DNA from: Sialis fuliginosa
Taxonomy: Eukaryota > Arthropoda > Insecta > Megaloptera > Sialidae
Assembly (NCBI GenBank): GCA_961205875.1
Contig: OY540818.1
Span: 1,534,001-1,598,000, forward strand
Direction: 5' to 3'
Length of the DNA stretch: 64,000 nt
The position numbers and the translations under genes were made by a program. Under the pieces are notes generated by a model that saw nothing but the letters and a program-made list of their open reading frames with translations, had not been told where the DNA came from and searched no databases. Of this stretch, positions 21,850-64,000 are shown piece after piece (position 1 is the stretch's first letter; every line of letters begins with the position of its first letter).

Positions 21850-22800
21850 ACGATATATTATAAGATATGTTCGCATATCGTTATATATGGTAATATATTA
21901 ATTTTTGAGCCAAAAATATATTACTATATGTCGATATGTCTGATAATGTATAGTAATATCTTAATATAAAGAGCTTAAAATATATTGTTATATATACTTA
22001 TACAAAGAAATGTCTGATAATATATGGTTATGTCTTAATATACATTTATTTTAAATATATATTAATATATTAATATATCTCATAATATATATAAATGTCT
22101 TAATATATATCAGTGTACAGATGCAAGAATACATTGTAATATATATTTATATATTAATATATCTGATAATATATAGCGATGTCTTAATAAATATATAAAC
22201 CCTCAGAGCTCAAAATATATCGTAATATATAATAATATATTGACATATCTGATAATATATAGCGATGTCTTAATATATATATCAACCCTCAGAGCTGAAA
22301 ATATATCGTAATATATATTAATATATTGACATATCTGATAATATATAGCAATGTCTTAATATATATATCAATCCTCAGAGCTCAAAATATATCGTTATAT
22401 ATATTAATATATTGACATATCTGATAATATATAGCGATGTCTTAATATATATCAACCCTCAGAGCTCAAAATATATCGTTATATATATTAATATATAGAC
22501 ATATCTGATAATATATAGCGATGTCTTAATATATATATCAACCCTCAGAGCTCAAAATATATCGTTATATATATTTATATATTGACATATCTGATAATAT
22601 ATAGCGATGTCTTAATATATATATCAACCCTCAGAGCTCAAATTATATCGGTATATATATTAATATATAGACATATCTGATAATATACTATCATACATTA
22701 ACATATATCATCCCTCAGCTCCGAAAATATATTGTTATATGTATTTGCACATAGATATATATGATAATAGATAATCATATATTATAATATAATAATAATA
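21850..22800. repeat. 86-bp TA-rich satellite
   Basis: The mark 'ctcagagct' recurs at 22202, 22288, 22374, 22458, 22544 and 22630, with a variant at 22714: a steady 84-86-bp period. Each unit holds 'gacatatctgataatatata' and a 'gatgtcttaatatat' block. Units become degenerate toward both ends. Part of a further unit lies beyond the MITE that follows, near 23750-23800. Confidence 0.85.
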
Positions 22801-45869: not shown

Positions 45870-47698
45870 TCCATACTAATATTATAAATGCGAAAGTGTG
45901 TTTGTCTGTCTCTCTGTCTGTCTGTTACTTTTTCACGGCTAAACCGCTGAACCGATCTTGATGAAATTTGGCAGTAAGATAGCTTGCATCCCGAGTACGG
46001 ACATAAGCTACTTCGTATCTCGAAAATGCAACCCCTAAGAAATTGCAAGGGGGTGGAATTTTTTTGATTTTTTTAGTAATTAATATTTTACCCCCCGTTA
46101 CATATGAAGGGTTGTAATTAGTTTTATTCGATCCGGCGGGAAAAATACTACGGGGATGAAGGTTTCAGGGGGAAAACAACCCTCAATCTTGCATAGGAAC
46201 CAAGATATTTACGATTTTGTATAATGGAAGAAAACTAAAAATAAGAAAAATTTTATATTTCACCCCCTGTCACATATGAAGGGTTGTAATTGGTTACATT
46301 CGATCTGGCGAGAAAAATATTACGGCAGAGGGGTTATTAGGGGGACAATGTTTGTATAAATTTTTTTGCTTAGAATATTTTTCTCAATTTACTGTTCAAG
46401 TTTGGCACGACAGTGCTGTATCAGCCTGTATATACATATAAAAACATGTCTTGACTGACTGACTGACTGATTCATCATCGCCCAGCCGAAACCCCTGGTC
46501 CTAGAAACGTGAAATTTTAAGGGTGTCTTCCTTTTATGACGTAACCACCCACTAACAAAGGATTTTTTGATAATCAACTCCTAAGAGGGTGTAAAAGTTT
46601 GTATGGGAAAACATATTTTTTGGTCGAATTTACTTGAAACTTAAAATAAACGCTCTTCAATTCAAACAATGAAACACGTATTTCAGCATTTTCCAAAATT
46701 AAACCCTTAAAGGGGTGCAAGGATTGGATAAGTTTGTATAGGAAATATTTTTTTTTATCGGATTTACTTGAAACTTAAAATAAATACTCTTCAATATAAA
46801 CAATGAAACAAGTATTTCAGTATTTCCCAAAATTTAACCCTTAAGGGGATGCAAGGAGGGTGGAGAAATTTGTGTAGGAAAAATATTTTTTGATCGGATT
46901 TACTTGAAACTTAAACTAAATACCCTACAATACAAACAATGAAACACGTATTTCAGCATTTCCCTAAATTCATCCCCTAAAAGTTTGCAAGAGGGTTGAA
47001 AAATTTGTATGAGAATTTTTTTTGTATTCACGCGAATGAAACTTTGCACAAATAATCTATAAGACAAATAACATTTTCAAAAATTAAACCCCTAAGGGAT
47101 GGGGGGGGGAGGTTTAAACTTTTTTAAATTTTGATATATTTATCTATTTATCTACGTAACTGTTTATGATATTAAGGTAAATTTGGACAAGATAATATTC
47201 AATTAAAATTAAAATTTCGACATTCAACCCCTAATAGTGTAAGAAGGGGACGAGGGTGGGTTTTTGGTATGTTTATCTGCATAGTTGCTTAAGTTATAAA
47301 GGTGAATTCGAACAAAATAGTCTTCAATAAAAATAAGAATTTCGGCATTCAACCCCTAATGACGGGGGTTGACATGGAGTTGGGTTTCTGTAATTTTTAA
47401 CTATGTTTCGAGATATTTACGATTTTGTGTAGGTAATGAATAAAAATAAATAATTATTTAATATTTCATCCCCTGTCACGTATGGAGGGTTGTAATTAGT
47501 TTAATTCAATCCGGCTGGAAATATACTACGGGGGAGGGGGTTTTAAGGGGAAAAACAACCCCCTATCTTGCATAGGAGCCGAGATATAGTCAATAAAAAA
47601 CAAATAAAGGAAAAATTAAATATTTCACCCCATGTCACGTATGCAAGTTTGTAATTAGTTTCAAAATCCACGCGAGCGAAGCCGCGGGTATCAGCTGG
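45870..47698 (+). mobile_element. Non-autonomous Helitron
   Basis: It begins A/TCCATACTAATATTATAAAT and ends GCGGGTATCAGCTGG/T, that is 5'-TC, 3'-CTRR, between A and T, with no target duplication. A GC hairpin (CGCG...CGCG around 'agcgaagc', about 47671-47687) lies 8-10 bases before CTGG, as required for Helitron termination. The interior has tandem repeats of about 136 bp ('ggatttacttgaaacttaaa' at about 46625, 46761, 46897) and 'gactgactgactgact'. No Rep or helicase is encoded. Confidence 0.8.
46560..46995. repeat. ~136-bp tandem repeat inside the Helitron
   Basis: Three units share 'tttacttgaaacttaaa' and 'acaatgaaacacgtatttca'. Two further degenerate units extend to about 47400. Confidence 0.7.

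Positions 47699-48356: not shown

Positions 48357-48420
<64 letters not shown>
48357..48420. repeat. (AT)n microsatellite at left edge of PLE array
   Basis: About 32 uninterrupted AT units directly abut the outer 3' end of the first Penelope-like copy. Confidence 0.9.
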
Positions 48421-48423
<3 letters not shown>

Positions 48424-49316
48424 AATATACCTATTTTGTAGGGGTTTTTTTTTCAGGTCAAAATATTAATTAAAGAACTAAACCAATGTTCAAATCATTT
48501 TAATTAATAGCGCTTATTTTAATTTTCAACATTTTTGTCTTCATCAGAAATTAATAATTATCCCTATAAGAAATCATAAACATAAGTAAGTAACATAAGC
48601 AAATGAACAAGATATTCATAGATATAAACATATTTTTACTTACAATTTAAACAGAAATTAGTGTGACCATATGTATGTAGTAAAAGATGCATATTACATC
48701 AAAAATTTTTTTTTTAAATATTAAAAAGTACCCATTTTTGTACAAAAGACTAAAAATATGTAAATGTGATATCCAACAGATAAAACAATATATAAAAACA
48801 TTTTTTTTTTAAAACATTAAAACTTAAAAATTTAGTTTAAAAACGTTAAAAATAAATAAAATTCGTATCACATTGTATCACATGTTGAAAAGTATTTATA
48901 ATAAGATAAAACTTAATTAAACAAGAACAATCAATTGTTTTTACTTAAAACTAGTTACAAATTTATTATACAAACATGAAAAAAGAAATAAAATTACTAG
49001 TGTTTCAATGAAAGAAAAGCACTAGTATTACAAACTTAATTATATTTATTACATCTATGGAAAACAAAAAACTTATCTATGTTAAATGTCAATTTTAAGT
49101 ACAAGGTAACCTAGAAAGAAATTTTTTAAAAATTTTTAAAAAGAGAGAAAAAAAAAAAAAGAGAAAAAAAGGAACAAAAACCATCAAAATCAAACAAAAC
49201 ATATACCTAATCAAACAAAAATGAAAAAAGTTAAAATTAATAGAAAAACCAAAAAATGGCATACAATACAAGCAAAAAGAAACGTGGAAAGAAGAAGAAA
49301 GAGGAAAAAAGAAAAT
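48421..49316 (-). mobile_element. PLE outer 3' region (pLTR) of copy A
   Basis: This matches the inter-ORF regions at 51987, 55562, 58820 and 62396, ending at 'acaaaataggtatatttaa' (minus strand). It includes an A/T-run-rich tail and the hammerhead-like core at 48541-48547. The region stops about 35 bp earlier than the equivalent right-hand edge of the array. It supplies the 3' untranslated part for copy A. Confidence 0.8.
48497..48558 (-). ncRNA. Hammerhead-like ribozyme core, PLE copy A 3' region
   Basis: CTGATGA at 48541-48547 (minus strand), weak stem II, GAA at 48525-48527. Same sequence as the copy described at 59576-59640. Confidence 0.5.
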
Positions 49317-51986
49317 TTATTTAATTAAATTTAGATATGATTCTTTGAGGTGATTAAGATTTTCTCTAGAGTTAAGACATTTAGGTTCTTTTAAGATATG
49401 TAACGATTCACTAAGTAATCTTTTTTTTAAAATAGGCTGAAAATCTAAAATTTCAACATCACCATATTCAACTTCGTGACCAGTCTGTTGTATATGGGTA
49501 CGAAGTGCAGTAACTTCATTTTTAGCATATTTATGACTGTTGATTCTCTTTTGCAAGTATTGTTTAGATTGCCCTAAGTAAGAATAATCACAAGAACATT
49601 TAAGTTTATAAATAACGTTAGAACATTTCATCTTATCAGTTTTATTTTTCAATTTAGAAAAAAAAATTTTAGTAGTATACTTATTTTTGTTTATCATTTT
49701 TATATTATGTCCAGAAACAACTCTTTTCATTTTTTCAGATAAAATAGGTATATACGGGAATGAAAAATATATTTGATCATCATAAGAGTAATTGGAATTA
49801 TCTGCAACAGCCAAACTTTTACTATTTTTATTATGTCCATAAAGTATACTTTTGAGTCTATTATTTATAGTGTTTTTAAGAAAATTAATGGGATAACCAT
49901 TTAATAAGAAAATATTGTAAACTTTGTTGAGTATTTGATTTCTATATTTAAAATTAGTGAATTTAATTGCCCGGTCTAAAATAGCAGTAATAACATTACG
50001 TTTATGTTCAATAGAGGAATTAGAATTGTAGTTCAAATATCTAGCAGACCAGGTAGGTTTAGTATACCATATGGTTTCAACTTTATTATGTTTGTTAACC
50101 AAAATTTTTATATCTAAAAAACTAATTTCTCTATTTTGATTTTCAAGTTCATAAGAAAATTGTAATCTATCATGAAAAGAATTAAAGCTATTGCATAAAG
50201 TTTCAATTTTATCCGAAGGTATTGCTGTAATGATGTCATCAACATATCTTTTAAAAAAAGGAATCTCATAATCTACATTTTTCAAAACAGACTCTTGTAG
50301 TTCGTTCATAATAATATCAGCCAAAACAACAGATAGAGATGAACCCATAGGTGCTCCATAAATTTGTGAATAAAATTGATTTTTAAACTGGAAATATGAC
50401 GTATTGCAACAAAATTTCAAACCATCAATAAAATCGTCCTTCTCAATATTAGTGTATTTTTTTATTTCTTCCCATTTATTAGTGATAATCTCAATAGTAG
50501 TATCGATAGGTATGTTAGTAAACAATGATTTAACATCAAGTGAAATTAATTTATATTTATTAGGTATATGAAAATCTTTAATAAATTCATGGAATTCCCA
50601 AGAGTCTCTCACGGTATTATTATTAGCAGTAATATTTTTTAAAATATCAGAGAAAAATTTTGACAATTTTTGTTGTGGGCTATTATATGAAGCAACTATA
50701 GGTCTGACAGGATTATTTACTTTATGTAATTTTATCAACCCGTAAATTTGTGGAGGAGTACTATTATGCACTTTAAGTTGGTTACTCAAATTTTGATCAA
50801 TATAACCCATTTCATAAAATTTTTGAATAATGTTATTGTTTCTGTTCTGGAAAATATTAGTGGGGTCTTTATGTATTTTAAGATATGTTTCACCATCATT
50901 TAACAGCTCATACATTTTATTATCATAATCTACTTTATCAATCAATACGGTTTTATTAGTTTTATCAGCACGAATCACTTTGATATTTTCATTCTCCTTA
51001 AAAAACTTCCTTGCATCAGAAACATCCTTAATTAGAGAACCATTATATTTATTATTCAAAAAGTTGTTTTTTTTCATGTTATCCTTGTACTGATTAACAT
51101 TATATATAAATTTATTTCTAATTAAGTTTTTTTCATTTTCATCTAGGTTGTCAATACCATATTCAAATGAAATAATCATATCATTGATAGGTAGATTATT
51201 ATTATTATAGGGTAAATTGAAATTTGATCCAAGTTTTAATAAATTGTTAATATTATCTGGTATCTTGTTAGAGGTTAAATTAACAACAAAATTCTCCTCA
51301 TTGTGTTTAAGAGGGTTAAATTCAATATCTATTGGTAGCTTACAATTATATTTGTTATTATATTTAGAAACATGGTTATTATTTATTATTAAATTTCTAT
51401 TTTTATTATTATTATAGTTATCTACTATCTGTTTAGAACTATTGATACAATTATTAATATATTGATTTTCATTAACCATGGCTTCAGACTTCAATTTATT
51501 AAATTTATTAATGACAACATTAAATGATTTATAATAAGTAAATTGATAAATAGAACTTTCAATGAAAAAAACTTGTTGTAAATCAGATATAGTGAGATAT
51601 TGTTTTAGCAAACTATGACATTCATTAATACAATTTTTGTTATTTTTTAAATTACTAAAGGTTTCTGAAATTAACAGATTTAATAGCTTGTACTTAAAAT
51701 TATTTAAAATATTGTTATATCTATGTTTATTGCTATTATTACTTAAAGAAATAAAGTTTTTTTTATTATCAAATTTACTATTCATAAATTTAGGAAAAAG
51801 ATTATTCTTTTTACAACTTATAAGGAAAAATTTTTTTATATCTAGTCTTGCCTTTGTACTATATAATTTTCTTACTTGTTTCATTCTATCTTGGATGTCT
51901 TCATTTTTATATTTGTTGAGTAGAGAGTTCATATTACACTTATCATCCCCAGTGTTTTTTATATTAGTATTCATATATATGACCAT
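49317..51986 (-). CDS. Penelope-like element RT/GIY-YIG protein, copy A
   Basis: A single 889-residue ORF encodes a reverse transcriptase followed by a GIY-YIG endonuclease, the domain order of Penelope-like retroelements (nuclear target-primed retrotransposition). Visible motifs: R-ADK at 339-342; PPQIYGLIKLHK at 411-422; catalytic Asp in SLDVKSLF (D484); GAPMGSSLS from 544; YVDD 581-584 with the catalytic Asp pair; Cys group C788/C797/C799; GIY-YIG core IY (792-793) to YLG (803-805); then R814, H818 and E860. All key residues are present. The first ATG has an A at -3 and G at +4. The first ~300 residues are Asn/Lys-rich with no domain I recognise. It lies in tandem 3,575 bp from copy B, and the protein is the same in copies A, B and E. 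Confidence 0.93.
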   Translation of the reverse strand: MVIYMNTNIKNTGDDKCNMNSLLNKYKNEDIQDRMKQVRKLYSTKARLDIKKFFLISCKKNNLFPKFMNSKFDNKKNFISLSNNSNKHRYNNILNNFKYKLLNLLISETFSNLKNNKNCINECHSLLKQYLTISDLQQVFFIESSIYQFTYYKSFNVVINKFNKLKSEAMVNENQYINNCINSSKQIVDNYNNNKNRNLIINNNHVSKYNNKYNCKLPIDIEFNPLKHNEENFVVNLTSNKIPDNINNLLKLGSNFNLPYNNNNLPINDMIISFEYGIDNLDENEKNLIRNKFIYNVNQYKDNMKKNNFLNNKYNGSLIKDVSDARKFFKENENIKVIRADKTNKTVLIDKVDYDNKMYELLNDGETYLKIHKDPTNIFQNRNNNIIQKFYEMGYIDQNLSNQLKVHNSTPPQIYGLIKLHKVNNPVRPIVASYNSPQQKLSKFFSDILKNITANNNTVRDSWEFHEFIKDFHIPNKYKLISLDVKSLFTNIPIDTTIEIITNKWEEIKKYTNIEKDDFIDGLKFCCNTSYFQFKNQFYSQIYGAPMGSSLSVVLADIIMNELQESVLKNVDYEIPFFKRYVDDIITAIPSDKIETLCNSFNSFHDRLQFSYELENQNREISFLDIKILVNKHNKVETIWYTKPTWSARYLNYNSNSSIEHKRNVITAILDRAIKFTNFKYRNQILNKVYNIFLLNGYPINFLKNTINNRLKSILYGHNKNSKSLAVADNSNYSYDDQIYFSFPYIPILSEKMKRVVSGHNIKMINKNKYTTKIFFSKLKNKTDKMKCSNVIYKLKCSCDYSYLGQSKQYLQKRINSHKYAKNEVTALRTHIQQTGHEVEYGDVEILDFQPILKKRLLSESLHILKEPKCLNSRENLNHLKESYLNLIK

Positions 51987-52891
51987 CTTGATATTATTTA
52001 AATATACCTATTTTGTAGGGGTTTTTTTTTCAGGTCAAAATATTAATTAAAGAACTAAACCAATGTTCAAATCATTTTAATTAATAGCGCTTATTTTAAT
52101 TTTCAACATTTTTGTCTTCATCAGAAATTAATAATTATCCCTATAAGAAATCATAAACATAAGTAAGTAACATAAGCAAATGAACAAGATATTCATAGAT
52201 ATAAACATATTTTTACTTACAATTTAAACAGAAATTAGTGTGACCATATGTATGTAGTAAAAGATGCATATTACATCAAAAATTTTTTTTTAAATATTAA
52301 AAAGTACCCATTTTTGTACAAAAGACTAAAAATATGTAAATGTGATATCCAACAGATAAAACAATATATAAAAACATTTTTTTTTTAAAACATTAAAACT
52401 TAAAAATTTAGTTTAAAAACGTTAAAAATAAATAAAATTCGTATCACATTGTATCACATGTTGAAAAGTATTTATAATAAGATAAAACTTAATTAAACAA
52501 GAACAATCAATTGTTTTTACTTAAAACTAGTTACAAATTTATTATACAAACATGAAAAAAGAAATAAAATTACTAGTGTTTCAATGAAAGAAAAGCACTA
52601 GTATTACAAACTTAATTATATTTATTACATCTATGGAAAACAAAAAACTTATCTATGTTAAATGTCAATTTTAAGTACAAGGTAACCTAGAAAGAAATTT
52701 TTTAAAAATTTTTAAAAAGAGAGAAAAAAAAAAAAGAGAAAAAAAGGAACAAAAACCATCAAAATCAAACAAAACATATACCTAATCAAACAAAAATGAA
52801 AAAAGTTAAAATTAATAGAAAAACCAAAAAATGGCATACAATACAAGCAAAAAGAAACGTGGAAAGAAGAAGAAAGAGGAAAAAAGAAAAT
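51987..52891 (-). mobile_element. PLE pLTR between copies A and B
   Basis: This serves as the 5' leader of copy A and 3' untranslated region of copy B. It is near-identical to the other four inter-ORF regions apart from homopolymer lengths. It reads 'ggggtttttttttcaggtca' on the plus strand near 52018. No promoter motif is certain. Confidence 0.8.
52072..52135 (-). ncRNA. Hammerhead-like ribozyme core, A/B pLTR
   Basis: CTGATGA at about 52118-52124 on the minus strand with the same downstream GAA and stem III sequence as at 59576-59640. Confidence 0.5.
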
Positions 52892-55561
52892 TTATTTAAT
52901 TAAATTTAGATATGATTCTTTGAGGTGATTAAGATTTTCTCTAGAGTTAAGACATTTAGGTTCTTTTAAGATATGTAACGATTCACTAAGTAATCTTTTT
53001 TTTAAAATAGGCTGAAAATCTAAAATTTCAACATCACCATATTCAACTTCGTGACCAGTCTGTTGTATATGGGTACGAAGTGCAGTAACTTCATTTTTAG
53101 CATATTTATGACTGTTGATTCTCTTTTGCAAGTATTGTTTAGATTGCCCTAAGTAAGAATAATCACAAGAACATTTAAGTTTATAAATAACGTTAGAACA
53201 TTTCATCTTATCAGTTTTATTTTTCAATTTAGAAAAAAAAATTTTAGTAGTATACTTATTTTTGTTTATCATTTTTATATTATGTCCAGAAACAACTCTT
53301 TTCATTTTTTCAGATAAAATAGGTATATACGGGAATGAAAAATATATTTGATCATCATAAGAGTAATTGGAATTATCTGCAACAGCCAAACTTTTACTAT
53401 TTTTATTATGTCCATAAAGTATACTTTTGAGTCTATTATTTATAGTGTTTTTAAGAAAATTAATGGGATAACCATTTAATAAGAAAATATTGTAAACTTT
53501 GTTGAGTATTTGATTTCTATATTTAAAATTAGTGAATTTAATTGCCCGGTCTAAAATAGCAGTAATAACATTACGTTTATGTTCAATAGAGGAATTAGAA
53601 TTGTAGTTCAAATATCTAGCAGACCAGGTAGGTTTAGTATACCATATGGTTTCAACTTTATTATGTTTGTTAACCAAAATTTTTATATCTAAAAAACTAA
53701 TTTCTCTATTTTGATTTTCAAGTTCATAAGAAAATTGTAATCTATCATGAAAAGAATTAAAGCTATTGCATAAAGTTTCAATTTTATCCGAAGGTATTGC
53801 TGTAATGATGTCATCAACATATCTTTTAAAAAAAGGAATCTCATAATCTACATTTTTCAAAACAGACTCTTGTAGTTCGTTCATAATAATATCAGCCAAA
53901 ACAACAGATAGAGATGAACCCATAGGTGCTCCATAAATTTGTGAATAAAATTGATTTTTAAACTGGAAATATGACGTATTGCAACAAAATTTCAAACCAT
54001 CAATAAAATCGTCCTTCTCAATATTAGTGTATTTTTTTATTTCTTCCCATTTATTAGTGATAATCTCAATAGTAGTATCGATAGGTATGTTAGTAAACAA
54101 TGATTTAACATCAAGTGAAATTAATTTATATTTATTAGGTATATGAAAATCTTTAATAAATTCATGGAATTCCCAAGAGTCTCTCACGGTATTATTATTA
54201 GCAGTAATATTTTTTAAAATATCAGAGAAAAATTTTGACAATTTTTGTTGTGGGCTATTATATGAAGCAACTATAGGTCTGACAGGATTATTTACTTTAT
54301 GTAATTTTATCAACCCGTAAATTTGTGGAGGAGTACTATTATGCACTTTAAGTTGGTTACTCAAATTTTGATCAATATAACCCATTTCATAAAATTTTTG
54401 AATAATGTTATTGTTTCTGTTCTGGAAAATATTAGTGGGGTCTTTATGTATTTTAAGATATGTTTCACCATCATTTAACAGCTCATACATTTTATTATCA
54501 TAATCTACTTTATCAATCAATACGGTTTTATTAGTTTTATCAGCACGAATCACTTTGATATTTTCATTCTCCTTAAAAAACTTCCTTGCATCAGAAACAT
54601 CCTTAATTAGAGAACCATTATATTTATTATTCAAAAAGTTGTTTTTTTTCATGTTATCCTTGTACTGATTAACATTATATATAAATTTATTTCTAATTAA
54701 GTTTTTTTCATTTTCATCTAGGTTGTCAATACCATATTCAAATGAAATAATCATATCATTGATAGGTAGATTATTATTATTATAGGGTAAATTGAAATTT
54801 GATCCAAGTTTTAATAAATTGTTAATATTATCTGGTATCTTGTTAGAGGTTAAATTAACAACAAAATTCTCCTCATTGTGTTTAAGAGGGTTAAATTCAA
54901 TATCTATTGGTAGCTTACAATTATATTTGTTATTATATTTAGAAACATGGTTATTATTTATTATTAAATTTCTATTTTTATTATTATTATAGTTATCTAC
55001 TATCTGTTTAGAACTATTGATACAATTATTAATATATTGATTTTCATTAACCATGGCTTCAGACTTCAATTTATTAAATTTATTAATGACAACATTAAAT
55101 GATTTATAATAAGTAAATTGATAAATAGAACTTTCAATGAAAAAAACTTGTTGTAAATCAGATATAGTGAGATATTGTTTTAGCAAACTATGACATTCAT
55201 TAATACAATTTTTGTTATTTTTTAAATTACTAAAGGTTTCTGAAATTAACAGATTTAATAGCTTGTACTTAAAATTATTTAAAATATTGTTATATCTATG
55301 TTTATTGCTATTATTACTTAAAGAAATAAAGTTTTTTTTATTATCAAATTTACTATTCATAAATTTAGGAAAAAGATTATTCTTTTTACAACTTATAAGG
55401 AAAAATTTTTTTATATCTAGTCTTGCCTTTGTACTATATAATTTTCTTACTTGTTTCATTCTATCTTGGATGTCTTCATTTTTATATTTGTTGAGTAGAG
55501 AGTTCATATTACACTTATCATCCCCAGTGTTTTTTATATTAGTATTCATATATATGACCAT
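52892..55561 (-). CDS. Penelope-like element RT/GIY-YIG protein, copy B
   Basis: An intact 889-residue ORF with the same amino-acid sequence as copies A and E, hence the same RT (D484, YVDD 581-584) and GIY-YIG (792-860) residues. It lies head-to-tail with copy A at exactly one unit (3,575 bp) distance and with the truncated copy C upstream on the same strand. Complete identity between tandem copies points to very recent duplication, template jumping during insertion, or homogenisation. An assembly duplication is the main alternative. Opposite-strand frames of 66-137 codons over this region are shadows of its Asn/Lys-rich codons. Confidence 0.92.
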   Translation of the reverse strand: MVIYMNTNIKNTGDDKCNMNSLLNKYKNEDIQDRMKQVRKLYSTKARLDIKKFFLISCKKNNLFPKFMNSKFDNKKNFISLSNNSNKHRYNNILNNFKYKLLNLLISETFSNLKNNKNCINECHSLLKQYLTISDLQQVFFIESSIYQFTYYKSFNVVINKFNKLKSEAMVNENQYINNCINSSKQIVDNYNNNKNRNLIINNNHVSKYNNKYNCKLPIDIEFNPLKHNEENFVVNLTSNKIPDNINNLLKLGSNFNLPYNNNNLPINDMIISFEYGIDNLDENEKNLIRNKFIYNVNQYKDNMKKNNFLNNKYNGSLIKDVSDARKFFKENENIKVIRADKTNKTVLIDKVDYDNKMYELLNDGETYLKIHKDPTNIFQNRNNNIIQKFYEMGYIDQNLSNQLKVHNSTPPQIYGLIKLHKVNNPVRPIVASYNSPQQKLSKFFSDILKNITANNNTVRDSWEFHEFIKDFHIPNKYKLISLDVKSLFTNIPIDTTIEIITNKWEEIKKYTNIEKDDFIDGLKFCCNTSYFQFKNQFYSQIYGAPMGSSLSVVLADIIMNELQESVLKNVDYEIPFFKRYVDDIITAIPSDKIETLCNSFNSFHDRLQFSYELENQNREISFLDIKILVNKHNKVETIWYTKPTWSARYLNYNSNSSIEHKRNVITAILDRAIKFTNFKYRNQILNKVYNIFLLNGYPINFLKNTINNRLKSILYGHNKNSKSLAVADNSNYSYDDQIYFSFPYIPILSEKMKRVVSGHNIKMINKNKYTTKIFFSKLKNKTDKMKCSNVIYKLKCSCDYSYLGQSKQYLQKRINSHKYAKNEVTALRTHIQQTGHEVEYGDVEILDFQPILKKRLLSESLHILKEPKCLNSRENLNHLKESYLNLIK

Positions 55562-56466
55562 CTTGATATTATTTAAATATACCTATTTTGTAGGGGTTTT
55601 TTTTTCCAGGTCAAAATATTAATTAAAGAACTAAACCAATGTTCAAATCATTTTAATTAATAGCGCTTATTTTAATTTTCAACATTTTTGTCTTCATCAG
55701 AAATTAATAATTATCCCTATAAGAAATCATAAACATAAGTAAGTAACATAAGCAAATGAACAAGATATTCATAGATATAAACATATTTTTACTTACAATT
55801 TAAACAGAAATTAGTGTGACCATATGTATGTAGTAAAAGATGCATATTACATCAAAAATTTTTTTTTAAATATTAAAAAGTACCCATTTTTGTACAAAAG
55901 ACTAAAAATATGTAAATGTGATATCCAACAGATAAAACAATATATAAAAACATTTTTTTTTTAAAACATTAAAACTTAAAAATTTAGTTTAAAAACGTTA
56001 AAAATAAATAAAATTCGTATCACATTGTATCACATGTTGAAAAGTATTTATAATAAGATAAAACTTAATTAAACAAGAACAATCAATTGTTTTTACTTAA
56101 AACTAGTTACAAATTTATTATACAAACATGAAAAAAGAAATAAAATTACTAGTGTTTCAATGAAAGAAAAGCACTAGTATTACAAACTTAATTATATTTA
56201 TTACATCTATGGAAAACAAAAAACTTATCTATGTTAAATGTCAATTTTAAGTACAAGGTAACCTAGAAAGAAATTTTTTAAAAATTTTTAAAAAGAGAGA
56301 AAAAAAAAAAAGAGAAAAAAAGGAACAAAAACCATCAAAATCAAACAAAACATATACCTAATCAAACAAAAATGAAAAAAGTTACAATTAATAGAAAAAC
56401 CAAAAAATGGCATACAATACAAGCAAAAAGAAACGTGGAAAGAAGAAGAAAGAGGAAAAAAGAAAA
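55562..56466 (-). mobile_element. PLE pLTR between copies B and C
   Basis: Same sequence as the A/B region except small changes, such as 'ttttttccaggtca' with an extra C near 55607. It forms the 5' leader of copy B and the 3' region of truncated copy C. Confidence 0.8.
55650..55712 (-). ncRNA. Hammerhead-like ribozyme core, B/C pLTR
   Basis: CTGATGA at 55694-55700 (minus strand); same sequence as the other array copies. Confidence 0.5.
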
Positions 56467-57556
56467 TTTATTTAATTAAATTTAGATATGATTCTTTGAG
56501 GTGATTAAGATTTTCTCTAGAGTTAAGACATTTAGGTTCTTTTAAGATATGTAACGATTCACTAAGTAATCTTTTTTTTTAAAATAGGCTGAAAATCTAA
56601 AATTTCAACATCACCATATTCAACTTCGTGACCAGTCTGTTGTATATGGGTACGAAGTGCAGTAACTTCATTTTTAGCATATTTATGACTGTTGATTCTC
56701 TTTTGCAAGTATTGTTTAGATTGCCCTAAGTAAGAATAATCACAAGAACATTTAAGTTTATAAATAACGTTAGAACATTTCATCTTATCAGTTTTATTTT
56801 TCAATTTAGAAAAAAAAATTTTAGTAGTATACTTATTTTTGTTTATCATTTTTATATTATGTCCAGAAACAACTCTTTTCATTTTTTCAGATAAAATAGG
56901 TATATACGGGAATGAAAAATATATTTGATCATCATAAGAGTAATTGGAATTATCTGCAACAGCCAAACTTTTACTATTTTTATTATGTCCATAAAGTATA
57001 CTTTTGAGTCTATTATTTATAGTGTTTTTAAGAAAATTAATGGGATAACCATTTAATAAGAAAATATTGTAAACTTTGTTGAGTATTTGATTTCTATATT
57101 TAAAATTAGTGAATTTAATTGCCCGGTCTAAAATAGCAGTAATAACATTACGTTTATGTTCAATAGAGGAATTAGAATTGTAGTTCAAATATCTAGCAGA
57201 CCAGGTAGGTTTAGTATACCATATGGTTTCAACTTTATTATGTTTGTTAACCAAAATTTTTATATCTAAAAAACTAATTTCTCTATTTTGATTTTCAAGT
57301 TCATAAGAAAATTGTAATCTATCATGAAAAGAATTAAAGCTATTGCATAAAGTTTCAATTTTATCCGAAGGTATTGCTGTAATGATGTCATCAACATATC
57401 TTTTAAAAAAAGGAATCTCATAATCTACATTTTTCAAAACAGACTCTTGTAGTTCGTTCATAATAATATCAGCCAAAACAACAGATAGAGATGAACCCAT
57501 AGGTGCTCCATAAATTTGTGAATAAAATTGATTTTTAAACTGGAAATATGACGTAT
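56467..57556 (-). pseudogene. Penelope-like element copy C, 5'-truncated and frameshifted
   Basis: This matches codons ~528-889 of the intact protein. The 5' end is lost at the inverted junction just after the NTSYFQF segment, so the RT fingers and the first catalytic Asp (484) are missing while GAPMGSS, YVDD and the GIY-YIG domain remain. A T8 run has become T9 near 56571-56579, shifting the frame after residue ~854. The last part (with E860) is therefore not translated in frame. An apparent 344-codon frame begins in unrelated junction sequence. Non-functional. Confidence 0.9.
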
Positions 57557-57573
57557 ATAATAAATAATTTATA
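57557..57573. other. 17-bp AT-rich filler at the head-to-head PLE junction
   Basis: The sequence 'ataataaataatttata' joins the 5'-truncated ends of copies C and D. It is made of motifs resembling the adjacent 'taataaatata' of copy D, suggesting templated or microhomology-driven joining. Confidence 0.75.
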
Positions 57574-58819
57574 TAATAAATATAAATTAATTTCACTTGA
57601 TGTTAAATCATTGTTTACTAACATACCTATCGATACTACTATTGAGATTATCACTAATAAATGGGAAGAAATAAAAAAATACACTAATATTGAGAAGGAC
57701 GATTTTATTGATGGTTTGAAATTTTGTTGCAATACGTCATATTTCCAGTTTAAAAATCAATTTTATTCACAAATTTATGGAGCACCTATGGGTTCATCTC
57801 TATCTGTTGTTTTGGCTGATATTATTATGAACGAACTACAAGAGTCTGTTTTGAAAAATGTAGATTATGAGATTCCTTTTTTTAAAAGATATGTTGATGA
57901 CATCATTACAGCAATACCTTCGGATAAAATTGAAACTTTATGCAATAGCTTTAATTCTTTTCATGATAGATTACAATTTTCTTATGAACTTGAAAATCAA
58001 AATAGAGAAATTAGTTTTTTAGATATAAAAATTTTGGTTAACAAACATAATAAAGTTGAAACCATATGGTATACTAAACCTACCTGGTCTGCTAGATATT
58101 TGAACTACAATTCTAATTCCTCTATTGAACATAAACGTAATGTTATTACTGCTATTTTAGACCGGGCAATTAAATTCACTAATTTTAAATATAGAAATCA
58201 AATACTCAACAAAGTTTACAATATTTTCTTATTAAATGGTTATCCCATTAATTTTCTTAAAAACACTATAAATAATAGACTCAAAAGTATACTTTATGGA
58301 CATAATAAAAATAGTAAAAGTTTGGCTGTTGCAGATAATTCCAATTACTCTTATGATGATCAAATATATTTTTCATTCCCGTATATACCTATTTTATCTG
58401 AAAAAATGAAAAGAGTTGTTTCTGGACATAATATAAAAATGATAAACAAAAATAAGTATACTACTAAAATTTTTTTTTCTAAATTGAAAAATAAAACTGA
58501 TAAGATGAAATGTTCTAACGTTATTTATAAACTTAAATGTTCTTGTGATTATTCTTACTTAGGGCAATCTAAACAATACTTGCAAAAGAGAATCAACAGT
58601 CATAAATATGCTAAAAATGAAGTTACTGCACTTCGTACCCATATACAACAGACTGGTCACGAAGTTGAATATGGTGATGTTGAAATTTTAGATTTTCAGC
58701 CTATTTTAAAAAAAAGATTACTTAGTGAATCGTTACATATCTTAAAAGAACCTAAATGTCTTAACTCTAGAGAAAATCTTAATCACCTCAAAGAATCATA
58801 TCTAAATTTAATTAAATAA
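57574..58819 (+). pseudogene. Penelope-like element copy D, 5'-truncated
   Basis: The open frame matches residues ~476-889 of the intact protein, from NKYKLISLDVKSLF to the normal C-terminus. It keeps catalytic D484, YVDD and the complete GIY-YIG nuclease but lacks the N-terminal half including R-ADK and PPQIYGLIKLHK. A Met codon (57548) within the junction gives an apparent 423-codon ORF. It is opposite in orientation to copies A-C and lies one unit upstream of copy E. A truncated RT is unlikely to be active; the nuclease part is unbroken. Confidence 0.9.
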
Positions 58820-59725
58820 ATTTTCTTTTTTCCTCTTTCTTCTTCTTTCCACGTTTCTTTTTGCTTGTATTGTATGCCATTTTTTGGTTTTTCTATTAAT
58901 TTTAACTTTTTTCATTTTTGTTTGATTAGGTATATGTTTTGTTTGATTTTGATGGTTTTTGTTCCTTTTTTTCTCTTTTTTTTTTTTCTCTCTTTTTAAA
59001 AATTTTTAAAAAATTTCTTTCTAGGTTACCTTGTACTTAAAATTGACATTTAACATAGATAAGTTTTTTGTTTTCCATAGATGTAATAAATATAATTAAG
59101 TTTGTAATACTAGTGCTTTTCTTTCATTGAAACACTAGTAATTTTATTTCTTTTTTCATGTTTGTATAATAAATTTGTAACTAGTTTTAAGTAAAAACAA
59201 TTGATTGTTCTTGTTTAATTAAGTTTTATCTTATTATAAATACTTTTCAACATGTGATACAATGTGATACGAATTTTATTTATTTTTAACGTTTTTAAAC
59301 TAAATTTTTAAGTTTTAATGTTTTAAAAAAAAAATGTTTTTATATATTGTTTTATCTGTTGGATATCACATTTACATATTTTTAGTCTTTTGTACAAAAA
59401 TGGGTACTTTTTAATATTTAAAAAAAAAATTTTTGATGTAATATGCATCTTTTACTACATACATATGGTCACACTAATTTCTGTTTAAATTGTAAGTAAA
59501 AATATGTTTATATCTATGAATATCTTGTTCATTTGCTTATGTTACTTACTTATGTTTATGATTTCTTATAGGGATAATTATTAATTTCTGATGAAGACAA
59601 AAATGTTGAAAATTAAAATAAGCGCTATTAATTAAAATGATTTGAACATTGGTTTAGTTCTTTAATTAATATTTTGACCTGAAAAAAAAACCCCTACAAA
59701 ATAGGTATATTTAAATAATATCAAG
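58820..59725 (+). mobile_element. PLE pLTR between copies D and E
   Basis: Plus-strand counterpart of the other inter-ORF regions: a T-rich 3' region of copy D, the hammerhead-like core, then 'ggtatatttaaataatatca' leading to the start codon of copy E. Confidence 0.8.
59576..59640 (+). ncRNA. Hammerhead-like ribozyme core, D/E pLTR
   Basis: The core CTGATGA (59588-59594) is followed by a weak stem II (GAC..GUU around 'aaaaat'), GAA (59608-59610), then AATTAA pairing with TTAATT (59611-59616 with 59628-59633) as stem III. A UUA cleavage triplet ends at 59634. ATTT (59584-59587) and AAAT (59635-59638) can form the start of stem I. The phrase aligns with the canonical core at 30980-31007 (shared CTGATGAAGAC). 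Stem II is poor, so activity is uncertain. Penelope-like elements are known to carry hammerheads here. Confidence 0.55.
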
Positions 59726-62395
59726 ATGGTCATATATATGAATACTAATATAAAAAACACTGGGGATGATAAGTGTAATATGAACTCTCTACTCAACAAA
59801 TATAAAAATGAAGACATCCAAGATAGAATGAAACAAGTAAGAAAATTATATAGTACAAAGGCAAGACTAGATATAAAAAAATTTTTCCTTATAAGTTGTA
59901 AAAAGAATAATCTTTTTCCTAAATTTATGAATAGTAAATTTGATAATAAAAAAAACTTTATTTCTTTAAGTAATAATAGCAATAAACATAGATATAACAA
60001 TATTTTAAATAATTTTAAGTACAAGCTATTAAATCTGTTAATTTCAGAAACCTTTAGTAATTTAAAAAATAACAAAAATTGTATTAATGAATGTCATAGT
60101 TTGCTAAAACAATATCTCACTATATCTGATTTACAACAAGTTTTTTTCATTGAAAGTTCTATTTATCAATTTACTTATTATAAATCATTTAATGTTGTCA
60201 TTAATAAATTTAATAAATTGAAGTCTGAAGCCATGGTTAATGAAAATCAATATATTAATAATTGTATCAATAGTTCTAAACAGATAGTAGATAACTATAA
60301 TAATAATAAAAATAGAAATTTAATAATAAATAATAACCATGTTTCTAAATATAATAACAAATATAATTGTAAGCTACCAATAGATATTGAATTTAACCCT
60401 CTTAAACACAATGAGGAGAATTTTGTTGTTAATTTAACCTCTAACAAGATACCAGATAATATTAACAATTTATTAAAACTTGGATCAAATTTCAATTTAC
60501 CCTATAATAATAATAATCTACCTATCAATGATATGATTATTTCATTTGAATATGGTATTGACAACCTAGATGAAAATGAAAAAAACTTAATTAGAAATAA
60601 ATTTATATATAATGTTAATCAGTACAAGGATAACATGAAAAAAAACAACTTTTTGAATAATAAATATAATGGTTCTCTAATTAAGGATGTTTCTGATGCA
60701 AGGAAGTTTTTTAAGGAGAATGAAAATATCAAAGTGATTCGTGCTGATAAAACTAATAAAACCGTATTGATTGATAAAGTAGATTATGATAATAAAATGT
60801 ATGAGCTGTTAAATGATGGTGAAACATATCTTAAAATACATAAAGACCCCACTAATATTTTCCAGAACAGAAACAATAACATTATTCAAAAATTTTATGA
60901 AATGGGTTATATTGATCAAAATTTGAGTAACCAACTTAAAGTGCATAATAGTACTCCTCCACAAATTTACGGGTTGATAAAATTACATAAAGTAAATAAT
61001 CCTGTCAGACCTATAGTTGCTTCATATAATAGCCCACAACAAAAATTGTCAAAATTTTTCTCTGATATTTTAAAAAATATTACTGCTAATAATAATACCG
61101 TGAGAGACTCTTGGGAATTCCATGAATTTATTAAAGATTTTCATATACCTAATAAATATAAATTAATTTCACTTGATGTTAAATCATTGTTTACTAACAT
61201 ACCTATCGATACTACTATTGAGATTATCACTAATAAATGGGAAGAAATAAAAAAATACACTAATATTGAGAAGGACGATTTTATTGATGGTTTGAAATTT
61301 TGTTGCAATACGTCATATTTCCAGTTTAAAAATCAATTTTATTCACAAATTTATGGAGCACCTATGGGTTCATCTCTATCTGTTGTTTTGGCTGATATTA
61401 TTATGAACGAACTACAAGAGTCTGTTTTGAAAAATGTAGATTATGAGATTCCTTTTTTTAAAAGATATGTTGATGACATCATTACAGCAATACCTTCGGA
61501 TAAAATTGAAACTTTATGCAATAGCTTTAATTCTTTTCATGATAGATTACAATTTTCTTATGAACTTGAAAATCAAAATAGAGAAATTAGTTTTTTAGAT
61601 ATAAAAATTTTGGTTAACAAACATAATAAAGTTGAAACCATATGGTATACTAAACCTACCTGGTCTGCTAGATATTTGAACTACAATTCTAATTCCTCTA
61701 TTGAACATAAACGTAATGTTATTACTGCTATTTTAGACCGGGCAATTAAATTCACTAATTTTAAATATAGAAATCAAATACTCAACAAAGTTTACAATAT
61801 TTTCTTATTAAATGGTTATCCCATTAATTTTCTTAAAAACACTATAAATAATAGACTCAAAAGTATACTTTATGGACATAATAAAAATAGTAAAAGTTTG
61901 GCTGTTGCAGATAATTCCAATTACTCTTATGATGATCAAATATATTTTTCATTCCCGTATATACCTATTTTATCTGAAAAAATGAAAAGAGTTGTTTCTG
62001 GACATAATATAAAAATGATAAACAAAAATAAGTATACTACTAAAATTTTTTTTTCTAAATTGAAAAATAAAACTGATAAGATGAAATGTTCTAACGTTAT
62101 TTATAAACTTAAATGTTCTTGTGATTATTCTTACTTAGGGCAATCTAAACAATACTTGCAAAAGAGAATCAACAGTCATAAATATGCTAAAAATGAAGTT
62201 ACTGCACTTCGTACCCATATACAACAGACTGGTCACGAAGTTGAATATGGTGATGTTGAAATTTTAGATTTTCAGCCTATTTTAAAAAAAAGATTACTTA
62301 GTGAATCGTTACATATCTTAAAAGAACCTAAATGTCTTAACTCTAGAGAAAATCTTAATCACCTCAAAGAATCATATCTAAATTTAATTAAATAA
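59726..62395 (+). CDS. Penelope-like element RT/GIY-YIG protein, copy E
   Basis: Intact 889-residue plus-strand ORF with the same protein sequence as copies A and B. The RT spans roughly residues 330-700 (R-ADK 339, PPQIYGLIKLHK 411, D484, GAPMGSS 544, YVDD 581). The linker has a Cys group (788-799), and the GIY-YIG nuclease covers about 790-870 with Y793, Y803, R814, H818 and probable catalytic E860. Within the GIY-YIG part, ALRTHIQQTGH (827-837) matches the conserved AL..H....GH of Penelope nucleases. The protein would nick target DNA and copy its own RNA at the nick. It is flanked by direct pLTRs on both sides, so this copy could be autonomous. Confidence 0.93.
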   Translation: MVIYMNTNIKNTGDDKCNMNSLLNKYKNEDIQDRMKQVRKLYSTKARLDIKKFFLISCKKNNLFPKFMNSKFDNKKNFISLSNNSNKHRYNNILNNFKYKLLNLLISETFSNLKNNKNCINECHSLLKQYLTISDLQQVFFIESSIYQFTYYKSFNVVINKFNKLKSEAMVNENQYINNCINSSKQIVDNYNNNKNRNLIINNNHVSKYNNKYNCKLPIDIEFNPLKHNEENFVVNLTSNKIPDNINNLLKLGSNFNLPYNNNNLPINDMIISFEYGIDNLDENEKNLIRNKFIYNVNQYKDNMKKNNFLNNKYNGSLIKDVSDARKFFKENENIKVIRADKTNKTVLIDKVDYDNKMYELLNDGETYLKIHKDPTNIFQNRNNNIIQKFYEMGYIDQNLSNQLKVHNSTPPQIYGLIKLHKVNNPVRPIVASYNSPQQKLSKFFSDILKNITANNNTVRDSWEFHEFIKDFHIPNKYKLISLDVKSLFTNIPIDTTIEIITNKWEEIKKYTNIEKDDFIDGLKFCCNTSYFQFKNQFYSQIYGAPMGSSLSVVLADIIMNELQESVLKNVDYEIPFFKRYVDDIITAIPSDKIETLCNSFNSFHDRLQFSYELENQNREISFLDIKILVNKHNKVETIWYTKPTWSARYLNYNSNSSIEHKRNVITAILDRAIKFTNFKYRNQILNKVYNIFLLNGYPINFLKNTINNRLKSILYGHNKNSKSLAVADNSNYSYDDQIYFSFPYIPILSEKMKRVVSGHNIKMINKNKYTTKIFFSKLKNKTDKMKCSNVIYKLKCSCDYSYLGQSKQYLQKRINSHKYAKNEVTALRTHIQQTGHEVEYGDVEILDFQPILKKRLLSESLHILKEPKCLNSRENLNHLKESYLNLIK

Positions 62396-63324
62396 ATTTT
62401 CTTTTTTCCTCTTTCTTCTTCTTTCCACGTTTCTTTTTGCTTGTATTGTATGCCATTTTTTGGTTTTTCTATTAATTTTAACTTTTTTCATTTTTGTTTG
62501 ATTAGGTATATGTTTTGTTTGATTTTGATGGTTTTTGTTCCTTTTTTTCTCTTTTTTTTTTTTCTCTCTTTTTAAAAATTTTTAAAAAATTTCTTTCTAG
62601 GTTACCTTGTACTTAAAATTGACATTTAACATAGATAAGTTTTTTGTTTTCCATAGATGTAATAAATATAATTAAGTTTGTAATACTAGTGCTTTTCTTT
62701 CATTGAAACACTAGTAATTTTATTTCTTTTTTCATGTTTGTATAATAAATTTGTAACTAGTTTTAAGTAAAAACAATTGATTGTTCTTGTTTAATTAAGT
62801 TTTATCTTATTATAAATACTTTTCAACATGTGATACAATGTGATACGAATTTTATTTATTTTTAACGTTTTTAAACTAAATTTTTAAGTTTTAATGTTTT
62901 AAAAAAAAAATGTTTTTATATATTGTTTTATCTGTTGGATATCACATTTACATATTTTTAGTCTTTTGTACAAAAATGGGTACTTTTTAATATTTAAAAA
63001 AAAATTTTTGATGTAATATGCATCTTTTACTACATACATATGGTCACACTAATTTCTGTTTAAATTGTAAGTAAAAATATGTTTATATCTATGAATATCT
63101 TGTTCATTTGCTTATGTTACTTACTTATGTTTATGATTTCTTATAGGGATAATTATTAATTTCTGATGAAGACAAAAATGTTGAAAATTAAAATAAGCGC
63201 TATTAATTAAAATGATTTGAACATTGGTTTAGTTCTTTAATTAATATTTTGACCTGGGAAAAAAAAAAAACCCCTACAAAATAGGTATATTTAAATAATA
63301 TCAAGATGGTCATATATATGAATA

Positions 63325-63326
<2 letters not shown>
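62396..63326 (+). mobile_element. PLE outer 3' region (pLTR) of copy E, with start of a further unit
   Basis: After the 3' region the sequence continues through 'tcaagatggtcatatatatg' and a few more codons of the next unit (MVIYMNTNI level), then breaks into (TA)n. It is slightly longer at its A run ('gggaaaaaaaaaaaacccc') than the others. The partial downstream unit is the usual overlap structure of Penelope tandem copies. Confidence 0.8.
63152..63216 (+). ncRNA. Hammerhead-like ribozyme core, outer pLTR of copy E
   Basis: CTGATGA at 63163-63169 with the same downstream GAA and stem III sequence as at 59576-59640. Confidence 0.5.

Positions 63327-63382
<56 letters not shown>
63327..63382. 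repeat. (TA)n microsatellite at right edge of PLE array
   Basis: About 28 TA units directly follow the partial unit, mirroring the (AT)n at the left edge. Confidence 0.9.
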
Positions 63383-63387
<5 letters not shown>

Positions 63388-63389
63388 GT

Positions 63390-63640
63390 TTATGTATATG
63401 ACCATATTGACGAATAATTTATTATTGTTTCAAATTGGGATTTTTTTCCAAGGTCAAAATAAAGAAAATTTAAAAAAATTCTTATTTAATTACACATACG
63501 TGCATTTATTTCATAAAATAGCTATTTTTTCGAATGTTATAAACATTCTTCTTCAGTGCATAAATTTCTTTTTTATATATATATCTACAAAATAATATCA
63601 CACAATTAGGAAAAATCCTTTTACAAAATTCAGATAGAAA
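63390..63640 (-). mobile_element. Diverged Penelope-like element end
   Basis: On the plus strand 'tatatgaccatattgacg' and 'ggatttttttccaaggtcaa' parallel 'tatatgaccatcttgata' and 'ggtttttttttcaggtcaaa' of the main array, with intervening sequence diverged. A hammerhead core lies at the expected distance. The remainder toward 63850 is unrecognised AT-rich DNA. This is a related but older or different PLE family, minus orientation. Confidence 0.65.
63515..63565 (-). ncRNA. Hammerhead ribozyme with complete core
   Basis: The minus strand has CTGAAGA (63550-63556), one unpaired base, a 7-bp stem II GAATGTT/AACATTC with a 3-base loop (63532-63548), then GAAA (63528-63531). Next comes AAAATAG/CTATTTT as stem III ending in a UUA cleavage triplet. 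All core positions (CUGANGA, GAAA, NUH) fit. Stem I pairing is less clear. Confidence 0.7.
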
Positions 63641-63853: not shown

Positions 63854-64000
63854 ATATTATATTAACAATTAATATTTTAAAACCACAAAAATTTTTTTTA
63901 AATAATATACGACCATGTGTCTAATTCTTTAAAACACATGGTCGTATATTATTTAAAAAAAATTTTTGTGGTTTTAAAATATTAATTGTTAATATAATAT
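63854..64000. repeat. Perfect 67-bp inverted repeat running off the window end
   Basis: Arms 63854-63920 and 63934-64000 are exact reverse complements (for example 'atacgaccatgtgt' and 'acacatggtcgtat') around a 13-base loop. The palindrome reaches the last base, so its true extent is unknown. Probably a short foldback MITE. Confidence 0.85.

Follow-up and report, generated by a model that had tools for sequence, protein, structure and literature searches.

How do copies of one retrotransposon come to stand as two mirror-image runs within a single (TA)n tract, with their 5' ends joined in the middle and both 3' ends facing outward? The question is raised by the 64,000-nt stretch of the Sialis fuliginosa genome analysed here (the window), for which a preliminary description, made from the sequence, had proposed opposite priming on the two strands of one TA target by a Penelope-like element, with template jumping as the source of the tandem units. 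For such elements, the head-to-head arrangement, the tails and priming from two strands in vitro have already been published (PMC3846280, PMC11167929).

Layout of the array

The array in the window is real: three identical ORFs of 889 residues, plus two copies truncated at their 5' ends, are arranged in two head-to-head arms. The minus arm (48418..57556, minus strand, ~9.1 kb) comprises units A and B and the truncated copy C (55562..57556, minus), and the plus arm (57574..63332, plus strand, 5.76 kb) the truncated copy D and unit E. ORF coordinates and translations bear out the earlier reading that A (49317..51986, minus), B (52892..55561, minus) and E (59726..62395, plus) encode one 889-residue protein; the A-B repeat length of 3575 bp was obtained again on recomputation (the element unit is in general ~3.56 kb), and C and D are indeed cut at their 5' ends, at unit position 1583 (window 57556) and unit position 1425 (window 57574), respectively. 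Between them, the head-to-head joint (57557..57573) holds 17 bp of AT-only sequence that is probably filler; TATAATAAAT, in the joint region, is found again 16 bp off, at the start of D. The per-copy comparison that had been suggested revealed a single substitution (copy C, unit position 2753) besides differences in homopolymer or G/A-tract length.

Both outer 3' ends lie in (TA)n, as had been described, but the two edges are not equivalent. The left target tract (48357..48417) was delimited by TRF together with end-pattern matches, and the right tract occupies 63333..63383; TRF called 48357-48429 and 63312-63383, its left call taking in AT-rich element bases. At the left edge the minus arm is tailless (match C10:1582411-1582444, minus; last element base ~48418) and halts 8 nt short of the ATG, whereas at the right edge the plus arm (match C10:1597311-1597342, plus) extends to +27 of the next ORF and bears a 35-nt 'tail' (63298..63332, plus), present at this end only. 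Likewise, (TA)n bounds the array on both sides, but the flank on the right is more than plain host DNA: what looks like the tailed 3' end of a diverged relative (63384..63580, minus) runs onto this tract from the opposite direction, recognised from 63384 to ~63580 by eye and through a weak blastn alignment (76 nt at 72%). A host duplication reaching beyond the (TA)n tracts, which the preliminary description had set against dual priming, was rejected in the form of an inverted duplication at the window: at an E threshold of 1e-3, the 600-bp flanks outside the two tracts did not match one another.

The element and its hammerhead-like motif

Assignment to the Penelope-like retrotransposons is supported beyond this one locus, with 51 intact ORF copies listed in the genome and with tandem or partial-tandem copies sharing common pLTRs. 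Residues 440-700 of the protein matched Pfam RVT_1 (E 6.7e-9, above its cut-off; unlisted with the full-length query), and the motifs DVKSLFTNIP and YVDDI presumably mark a Penelope-type RT rather than another RT. Residues 770-889 gave no match to a GIY-YIG endonuclease in Pfam or PDB; by eye we recognised VIY...YLG...R...E...N, which we take to follow the order of the GIY-YIG endonuclease motif. No protein relatives were found in viral contigs or prokaryote genomes, the two collections searched, and a tRNA scan found no tRNA.

Endonuclease-containing Penelope-like elements have a minimal type I hammerhead ribozyme in their pLTR. A motif resembling a hammerhead occurs in all five window units: A (48501..48547, minus; unit ~3438-3484), B (52078..52124, minus), C (55654..55700, minus), D (59588..59634, plus) and E (63163..63209, plus), and in none of 20 single-strand Markov controls. 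Two diverged relatives also have it, with stems II and III changed on both sides, and in the relative at the window's right edge it starts at 63556. The motif departs from the hammerhead in one extra A before stem II and in a stem I that is weak in the relatives. A hammerhead was not among the Rfam hits, which were microRNA-like or other weak ones on the window-end palindrome and the TA tract; like the two departures in structure, this counts against the mechanism proposed below. Single-strand folding gave z-scores of -0.86 and 0.52 for stretches of which the first lacked most of the stem I 5' strand and the second the relative's motif.

Pairing of two 3' end types

The 3' ends fall at two sites 35 nt apart, being either tailed (+27) or tailless (ending 8 nt upstream of the ATG). 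Like the (TA)n target, the two start sites are rich in TA. We counted 162 ends that directly abut (TA)n, against none in reversed-pattern controls; any short target-site duplication is hidden because TA lies on both sides. Neighbouring ends less than 60 kb apart (n = 94) were arranged as 76 -+, 14 +-, 2 ++ and 2 --. Genome-wide, 74 of the 76 '-..+' pairs of the main family combined one tailed and one tailless end, counting exact tailed ends and tailless ends with up to 3 mismatches (65 of 67 with exact patterns only), compared with at most 56 mixed pairs in 100,000 label shuffles. All ten pairs of a diverged second family were mixed as well, one of them with 27 bp between pattern starts and a tailless match with 2 mismatches. 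Unpaired ends (38/190 in the main family, 17/37 in the second) count against the mechanism proposed below. The exceptions to mixed pairing lie at C14:4.13-4.15M and C3:33.66-33.68M. Nor is the tailless-tailless exception explained away as two separate events, its arms being of one ORF genotype. In the same-type pair at C3:33.66-33.68M, unit spacing differs between the arms (3576-3577 against 3561), yet the arms have one ORF genotype, unlike all other sources compared; this pair is ambiguous with regard to two independent insertions.

The preliminary description had noticed neither the two 3' end sites nor the single genotype per insertion set out below, and we found neither the near-obligate tailed/tailless pairing nor the genotype common to both arms in print.

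Units within and between insertions

In the assembled sequence, near-identical units are common to the two arms and differ between insertions. Over a 921-nt segment, 54 of 84 opposite-arm pairs (mean 0.21 mismatches) and 44 of 63 same-arm pairs (mean 0.17 mismatches) were identical, that is, 98 of 147 within-locus pairs, against 0 of 1231 between-locus pairs (mean 5.71 mismatches). At C10:983-1021k, seven interior full units from both arms are identical over 3563 bp, while arrays whose full units were compared lie 4-20 substitutions per unit apart; with every insertion, new changes thus seem to be filtered through a bottleneck of one unit. In 6 of the 7 testable loci the two arms agreed in unit spacing to within 3 bp, unusual values (3651, and 4936 with an insertion) being left out at two points. 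Template jumping between RNAs, to which the tandem units had been ascribed, is not supported by these comparisons, because an array built by jumping among RNAs of different loci should contain mixed genotypes; repeated copying of a single-unit template fits better.

A circle would be unnecessary if dual priming took place on a linear RNA transcribed across several units of a tandem array already in the genome, which we consider unlikely. The anole authors propose a multi-copy mRNA, and their ribozyme mutants still insert (PMC11167929). Moreover, at C7 the two outermost plus units have a common substitution (unit position 3026) that is missing from the other units compared there, with a second substitution in one of the two; the shared change in adjacent units fits a heterogeneous multi-unit template and counts against a circular one, because one circle copied once would not give it. 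Against a linear transcript stands the contrast between arrays 4-20 substitutions per unit apart and units that are identical or nearly so within an array, in both arms.

Joints, 5' stops and arm lengths

The clean five-copy mirror of the earlier description is present, though as the ordinary form in this genome, with spans from 96 bp to 37 kb. Joints were read at 22 loci and at one rearranged locus; outside the latter, the suggested search for other head-to-head joints found them in 22 of 22 cases, with a few shared nt or unmatched bases at their centres. As judged from the assembly alone, an artefact was rejected, the same form recurring in seven insertions of 96-453 bp span and in 86 pairs from two families. 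Flanks matching in inverted orientation (1535 bp) were present at one locus only, C10:63-91k, which has the look of a large palindrome that arose later and was left out.

The 30 5' ends of 15 longer loci are scattered evenly over the unit (KS p 0.90); evenly spread stops do not tell a circle from a linear template. Run-off at the hammerhead cut was discarded: of 44 arm ends, 2 came within 15 nt of it, and L051 accounts for both. Arms contain up to about six units, and their lengths (adjusted by hand, by at most 40 nt, where TA made an end ambiguous, and with 1367 bp of inserted sequence subtracted at C3:21.7M) showed no significant correlation (Spearman 0.32, p 0.37, n = 10), which counts against the proposed mechanism. 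Synchronous arm growth, entertained from six loci, was dropped in view of this and of L038, L039 and L045. A constant lead of the tailless arm was rejected too: among the 10 loci measured, that arm is the longer in 6 (at most 20.4 kb, versus 2.3 kb).

Unlike the long loci, six of seven short insertions have arms that stop at near-equal unit positions (0-10 nt apart), which looks like fold-back or a shared stop and counts against the mechanism proposed below. Fold-back self-priming, whereby the 3' end of one cDNA folds and copies itself into a second arm, would suit these six, whose near-perfect palindromic form is accompanied by small loops and by microhomology suited to folding back, and self-priming has been proposed for rotifer Penelope palindromes, though on an antisense template (PMC3846280). 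A copied arm must, however, end like the first, yet 74 of 76 pairs end differently, and it can neither exceed its template nor gain a tail, yet the tailless arm is the longer in six of ten loci. Fold-back is thus already contradicted for long loci where the tailless arm is longer, and is improbable as the explanation of these arrays.

Amplification of a small insertion and its homogenisation at the DNA level, through unequal exchange or inter-arm conversion, would explain the array-specific genotypes and the C7 unit pair with its common change, and C10:63-91k provides an apparent large later palindrome. Arms of ~500-1000 bp are nevertheless already identical with the opposite arm (C10 small, L039, L045) and identity holds with very unequal arms too (L039, L038); we regard this route as very improbable. 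Two independent opposite-orientation insertions in one TA tract are hardly credible, for although plus and minus ends start 33-81 bp apart at 11 places and the window has a neighbour at its right edge, the independent neighbours observed are tail-to-tail, the reverse arrangement, and about half same-type pairs and unrelated genotypes would be predicted, against 2 of 76 and near identity.

Proposed insertion mechanism

We judge it probable that such an array arises by a single insertion at a (TA)n break, with dual-strand priming, several laps on a single-unit template and joining of the cDNA ends. Target-primed reverse transcription would proceed from both strands of the break, with one strand's 3' end priming at the tailless site and its counterpart at the tailed one (+27), the template being either one RNA or sibling RNAs of a common source. 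The two RTs would share a single-unit template and each continue along it beyond a first lap, giving tandem identical units in each arm, and would stop anywhere; the cDNA 3' ends would then be joined by microhomology or short filler to form the head-to-head centre. Dual priming itself is well supported, and the 74 of 76 tailed/tailless pairs and the genotype common to both arms uphold the earlier proposal that the two strands of one TA target were primed oppositely. We infer that the two 3' ends of the target act as primers and that one RNA may serve both enzymes. An RNA circle closed through the hammerhead-like motif, which would permit laps without a template jump, is our favoured but unproved template. 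More tentatively, and with some doubt, every insertion might be the work of an RT pair of one RNP, starting 35 nt apart on one hammerhead-closed RNA circle, each extending one strand of the TA break for up to ~six laps until the cDNA ends capture each other.

Relation to known systems

In LINE-1 twin priming, both target strands prime on one RNA, producing an internal, occasional inversion and one shared 3' end, whereas in the present element the inverted form, with its two outward-facing 3' ends, is the rule. Poseidon of Anolis carolinensis (PAc; Penelope/Poseidon clade) resembles the present element in its single RT-plus-endonuclease ORF (the endonuclease here being putative), tandem units with pLTRs, pLTR hammerhead (here hammerhead-like) and AT-rich target; in vitro, its purified protein cleaves the two target strands and extends each of them, beginning at two neighbouring internal positions of the RNA between which an optional 'tail' lies (PMC11167929). 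In PAc (PMC11167929), the start site does not differ between top and bottom strands and is not homologous to the cut DNA, whereas here the arms nearly always use different sites, TA-rich like the (TA)n target. PAc ribozyme mutants left insertion in vitro unchanged and no RNA ends were seen at the cleavage site, which counts against the mechanism proposed here; later integration steps were left to be validated (PMC11167929). Endonuclease-containing Penelope families of Adineta vaga likewise have head-to-head inverted pLTRs, joint palindromes, partial tandems and AT-rich targets, with a 31-bp tail optionally at one inverted pLTR (35 nt here), but are of low copy number, in contrast to the 76 paired insertions and countable pairing rule found here (PMC3846280). 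Metazoan non-LTR retrozymes share the tandem repeats and a type I hammerhead (here a hammerhead-like motif); unit-length circles are their presumed intermediates and mobilisation by Penelope-like enzymes is suspected (PMC7229834, PMC7761336). They are, however, non-coding and ~170-400 nt long (PMC7229834, PMC7761336), whereas our ~3.56-kb unit encodes its own enzyme in an 889-aa ORF and does not fit that description.

The activity and role of these ribozymes have been described as 'still a mystery' (PMC7761336). Dozens of insertions in one genome now provide countable rules, namely a single start site for each arm, a single genotype for each insertion and, in longer insertions, stops anywhere, and these speak against fold-back copying as the general route. 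The circle hypothesis becomes directly testable with RNA and the published enzyme system; if the reading of an RT pair on one circle is true, the tail would be a mark of which enzyme started where, not an optional ornament, and the hammerhead would be the device that makes tandem arrays. Two mirror-image runs from two fixed RNA points, apparently one per DNA strand, suggest a copying mode for a poorly understood class of retrotransposons.

Window array

At 48418–63332 the five-copy array of Penelope-like elements is present as the preliminary description had it, with three ORF copies (A and B on the minus strand, E on the plus) and two cut ones (C, minus; D, plus), and TRF found (TA)n at both of its edges. 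ORFs A, B and E encode one 889-residue protein, the same in all three; B lies one unit (3575 bp) from A, the truncation of C falls at unit position 1583 and that of D at 1425, and the C–D joint, where the minus arm (A, B, C) and plus arm (D, E) meet head-to-head, is 17 bp of AT only. The copies, described as identical, are nearly so, comparison of all of them giving a single substitution, besides some differences in homopolymer or tract length. The protein has an RVT_1 reverse transcriptase domain (residues 440–700, E 6.7e-9) and is 15% asparagine; a C-terminal GIY-YIG endonuclease is a candidate picked out by eye rather than by database match.

Both outer 3′ ends indeed meet TA, but the two are unlike: the left stops 8 nt before the ATG (tailless), whereas the right enters the next ORF by 27 nt before meeting TA (tailed). 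These 35 nt correspond to what the Penelope literature calls the 'tail', 30–40 bp long according to the available text of PMC11167929 and PMC3846280. Beyond the right TA tract, the sequence of the minus strand at 63384–63580 suggests a diverged relative whose 3′ end is of the tailed type, with the end structure of the main element and its own hammerhead-like motif, and two elements appear to converge at this tract. Further right, 63860–64000 is a near-perfect palindrome (arms ~65 bp) around ACACATGGTCGTATATTATTTAAA, which has the look of a small repeat of foldback or MITE type and accounts for sub-threshold microRNA-like Rfam matches. TRF also reported tandem-repeat blocks with units of 82–256 bp at 4596–5501, 13103–13929, 17299–17574, 22054–22773 and 46585–47010.

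Made up of a CUGANGA core, stem II, GAA and a stem III that carries the cleavage A, the motif is found in all five units of the window and in the right-flank relative, at no other place in the window, and was absent from 20 Markov-shuffled windows scanned on a single strand. Stems II and III remain paired in three diverged families with both sides changed, the relatives have a weak stem I, and an extra A precedes stem II in all three families. Rfam reported no hammerhead for the motif, which we regard as hammerhead-like and a candidate ribozyme.

Copies and joints across the genome

The 392-Mb assembly (20 contigs) contains at least 51 full-length ORF copies without internal stops, a lower bound with 51 of 1140 first-look candidates scored, and 48 genomic stretches were taken for locus reading. 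Joints were head-to-head at 22/22 loci read (14 reached via protein matches, one small neighbouring insertion, and seven short ones from the end-pair list, whose selection by end pairing already implies this orientation), the rearranged C10:63–91k and L048 (contig C11) not being counted. At C10:63–91k two joints are head-to-head, one is same-direction and one plus-then-minus (71562–71564); the flanks of 63112–90988 have 1535 bp in common, inverted, at 99.8%, the flanking DNA is tandem-repeat-like, and 54001–60000 is N. We take this locus for a later rearrangement and kept it out of the arm statistics. Long arrays lie less than 100 kb from a contig end at C3:36750805 to beyond 36773800, C7:60734–91204 and C10:63–93k.

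Tailed and tailless ends pair within insertions

For Penelope, the available text of PMC3846280, PMC11167929, PMC6155905, PMC7229834 and PMC7761336 already documents inverted copies joined head-to-head, partial tandems, tails, hammerheads in the pLTR and AT-rich targets; that of PMC12910113, on D. virilis, holds nothing further on these features. Exact patterns of the two ends joined to TA gave 90 tailed and 72 tailless matches in the genome, and reversed-pattern controls gave none. When a minus-strand end was paired with the next end if this was plus-strand and ≤60 kb away, 65/67 pairs comprised one tailed and one tailless end. Adding tailless ends with ≤3 mismatches gave 190 ends and 76 pairs: 42 tailless–tailed, 32 tailed–tailless, one tailless–tailless and one tailed–tailed. 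Mixed pairs, 74/76 here, never exceeded 56 in 100,000 label shuffles. Ends without a partner numbered 38 of the 190; one, C6:5179335, does have a tailed partner at 5189293, missed by the exact pattern because its TA tract is interrupted. In the tailless–tailless exception (C3:33659636–33679208), unit spacing differs by 15 bp between the arms (3576–3577 bp versus 3561), but a comparable 1191-nt ORF stretch is the same in both, with 2–7 substitutions versus the six other sources compared.

A second family, that of the relative at C10:982322–983519, gave 37 ends and 10 pairs, 10/10 mixed, with 17 ends unpaired; a narrower tailless pattern recovered 4 of its 15 tailless ends. This relative is 72–82% identical to the main element, has the same end structure, and is itself head-to-head, directly adjoining the C10:983–1021k array. 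At 11 places, versus ~0.01 expected with randomly placed ends, a plus end and a minus end begin 33–81 bp apart, tail-to-tail, and in 4/11 (one at the left edge of that array) the neighbours are of different families; the window's right edge is an additional case, with yet another relative. Insertion edges keep TA and get hit again.

One genotype per insertion

Over a 921-nt segment (53 copies, 13 sources), 54/84 opposite-arm pairs of one locus and 44/63 same-arm pairs were identical, compared with 0/1231 between loci (mean 5.71 mismatches and 4.65 indels); the pairs are mutually non-independent, and 12 between-locus pairs without mismatch were separated by indels alone. At C10:983–1021k, seven interior full units from both arms are identical over 3563 bp, with one difference in the innermost cut minus copy, and the arrays compared by full units differ from one another by 4–20 substitutions. 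Short arms at insertion loci L039, L045, L056 and the small C10 insertion show no differences arm versus arm, their minus arms being 3–10 substitutions from the window's unit. Arms differ by two substitutions and two indels at L033, two indels at L041 and on C6, and one substitution at L050 and L054. At C7:84084–91204 the two outermost plus units carry a common substitution at unit position 3026, absent from the other units compared, which counts against a single template.

Mechanism of insertion

Two-site dual priming on a single-unit template is most likely how insertion works. A break in (TA)n would yield two 3′ ends that prime reverse transcription at two separate template sites, one each, and so give the two kinds of outward 3′ end; the two enzymes would make several laps of one single-unit template, and the cDNA ends would meet and be joined. 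The 30 arms of the 15 longer loci begin at positions scattered evenly along the unit (KS p 0.90), and within a locus the two stops lie at a distance compatible with independence (KS p 0.48 versus uniform); arm lengths showed no significant correlation (n=10). A circular template would account at once for the laps, the identity of units, the internal starts and the lack of any favoured 5′ end, but a linear RNA of several homogeneous units may serve in its place. Fold-back as source of the second arm fails for at least 6/10 measured loci, because that arm could neither gain a tail nor exceed the first in length.

Unlike the long loci, 6/7 short insertions have both arms stopping ≤10 nt apart, and L050–L054 and L056, whose end patterns are separated by 96–453 bp, form near-perfect palindromes. 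Possible causes are run-off of the two enzymes from a single broken RNA, or annealing of the two like cDNA ends at locally palindromic sequence. Against the window's unit, 11 of 21 joints have 1–6 nt in common and 10 have 1–69 nt lacking an exact match, these unmatched bases being partly locus-specific variation, not filler.

Dual priming agrees with the anole enzyme, for which the available text of PMC11167929 describes both strands as cut and extended, with two internal start sites. In rotifer Penelope the tail is optional at one of the inverted pLTRs (PMC3846280, available text). Among the Penelope papers listed, mainly non-subscription, no title or abstract opening gave the pairing as a rule or a one-genotype-per-insertion test. 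In the anole element, as far as the available text of PMC11167929 goes, start sites do not differ between strands, whereas here they are split almost without exception between the two arms, and this near-obligate split within each insertion is the new point.
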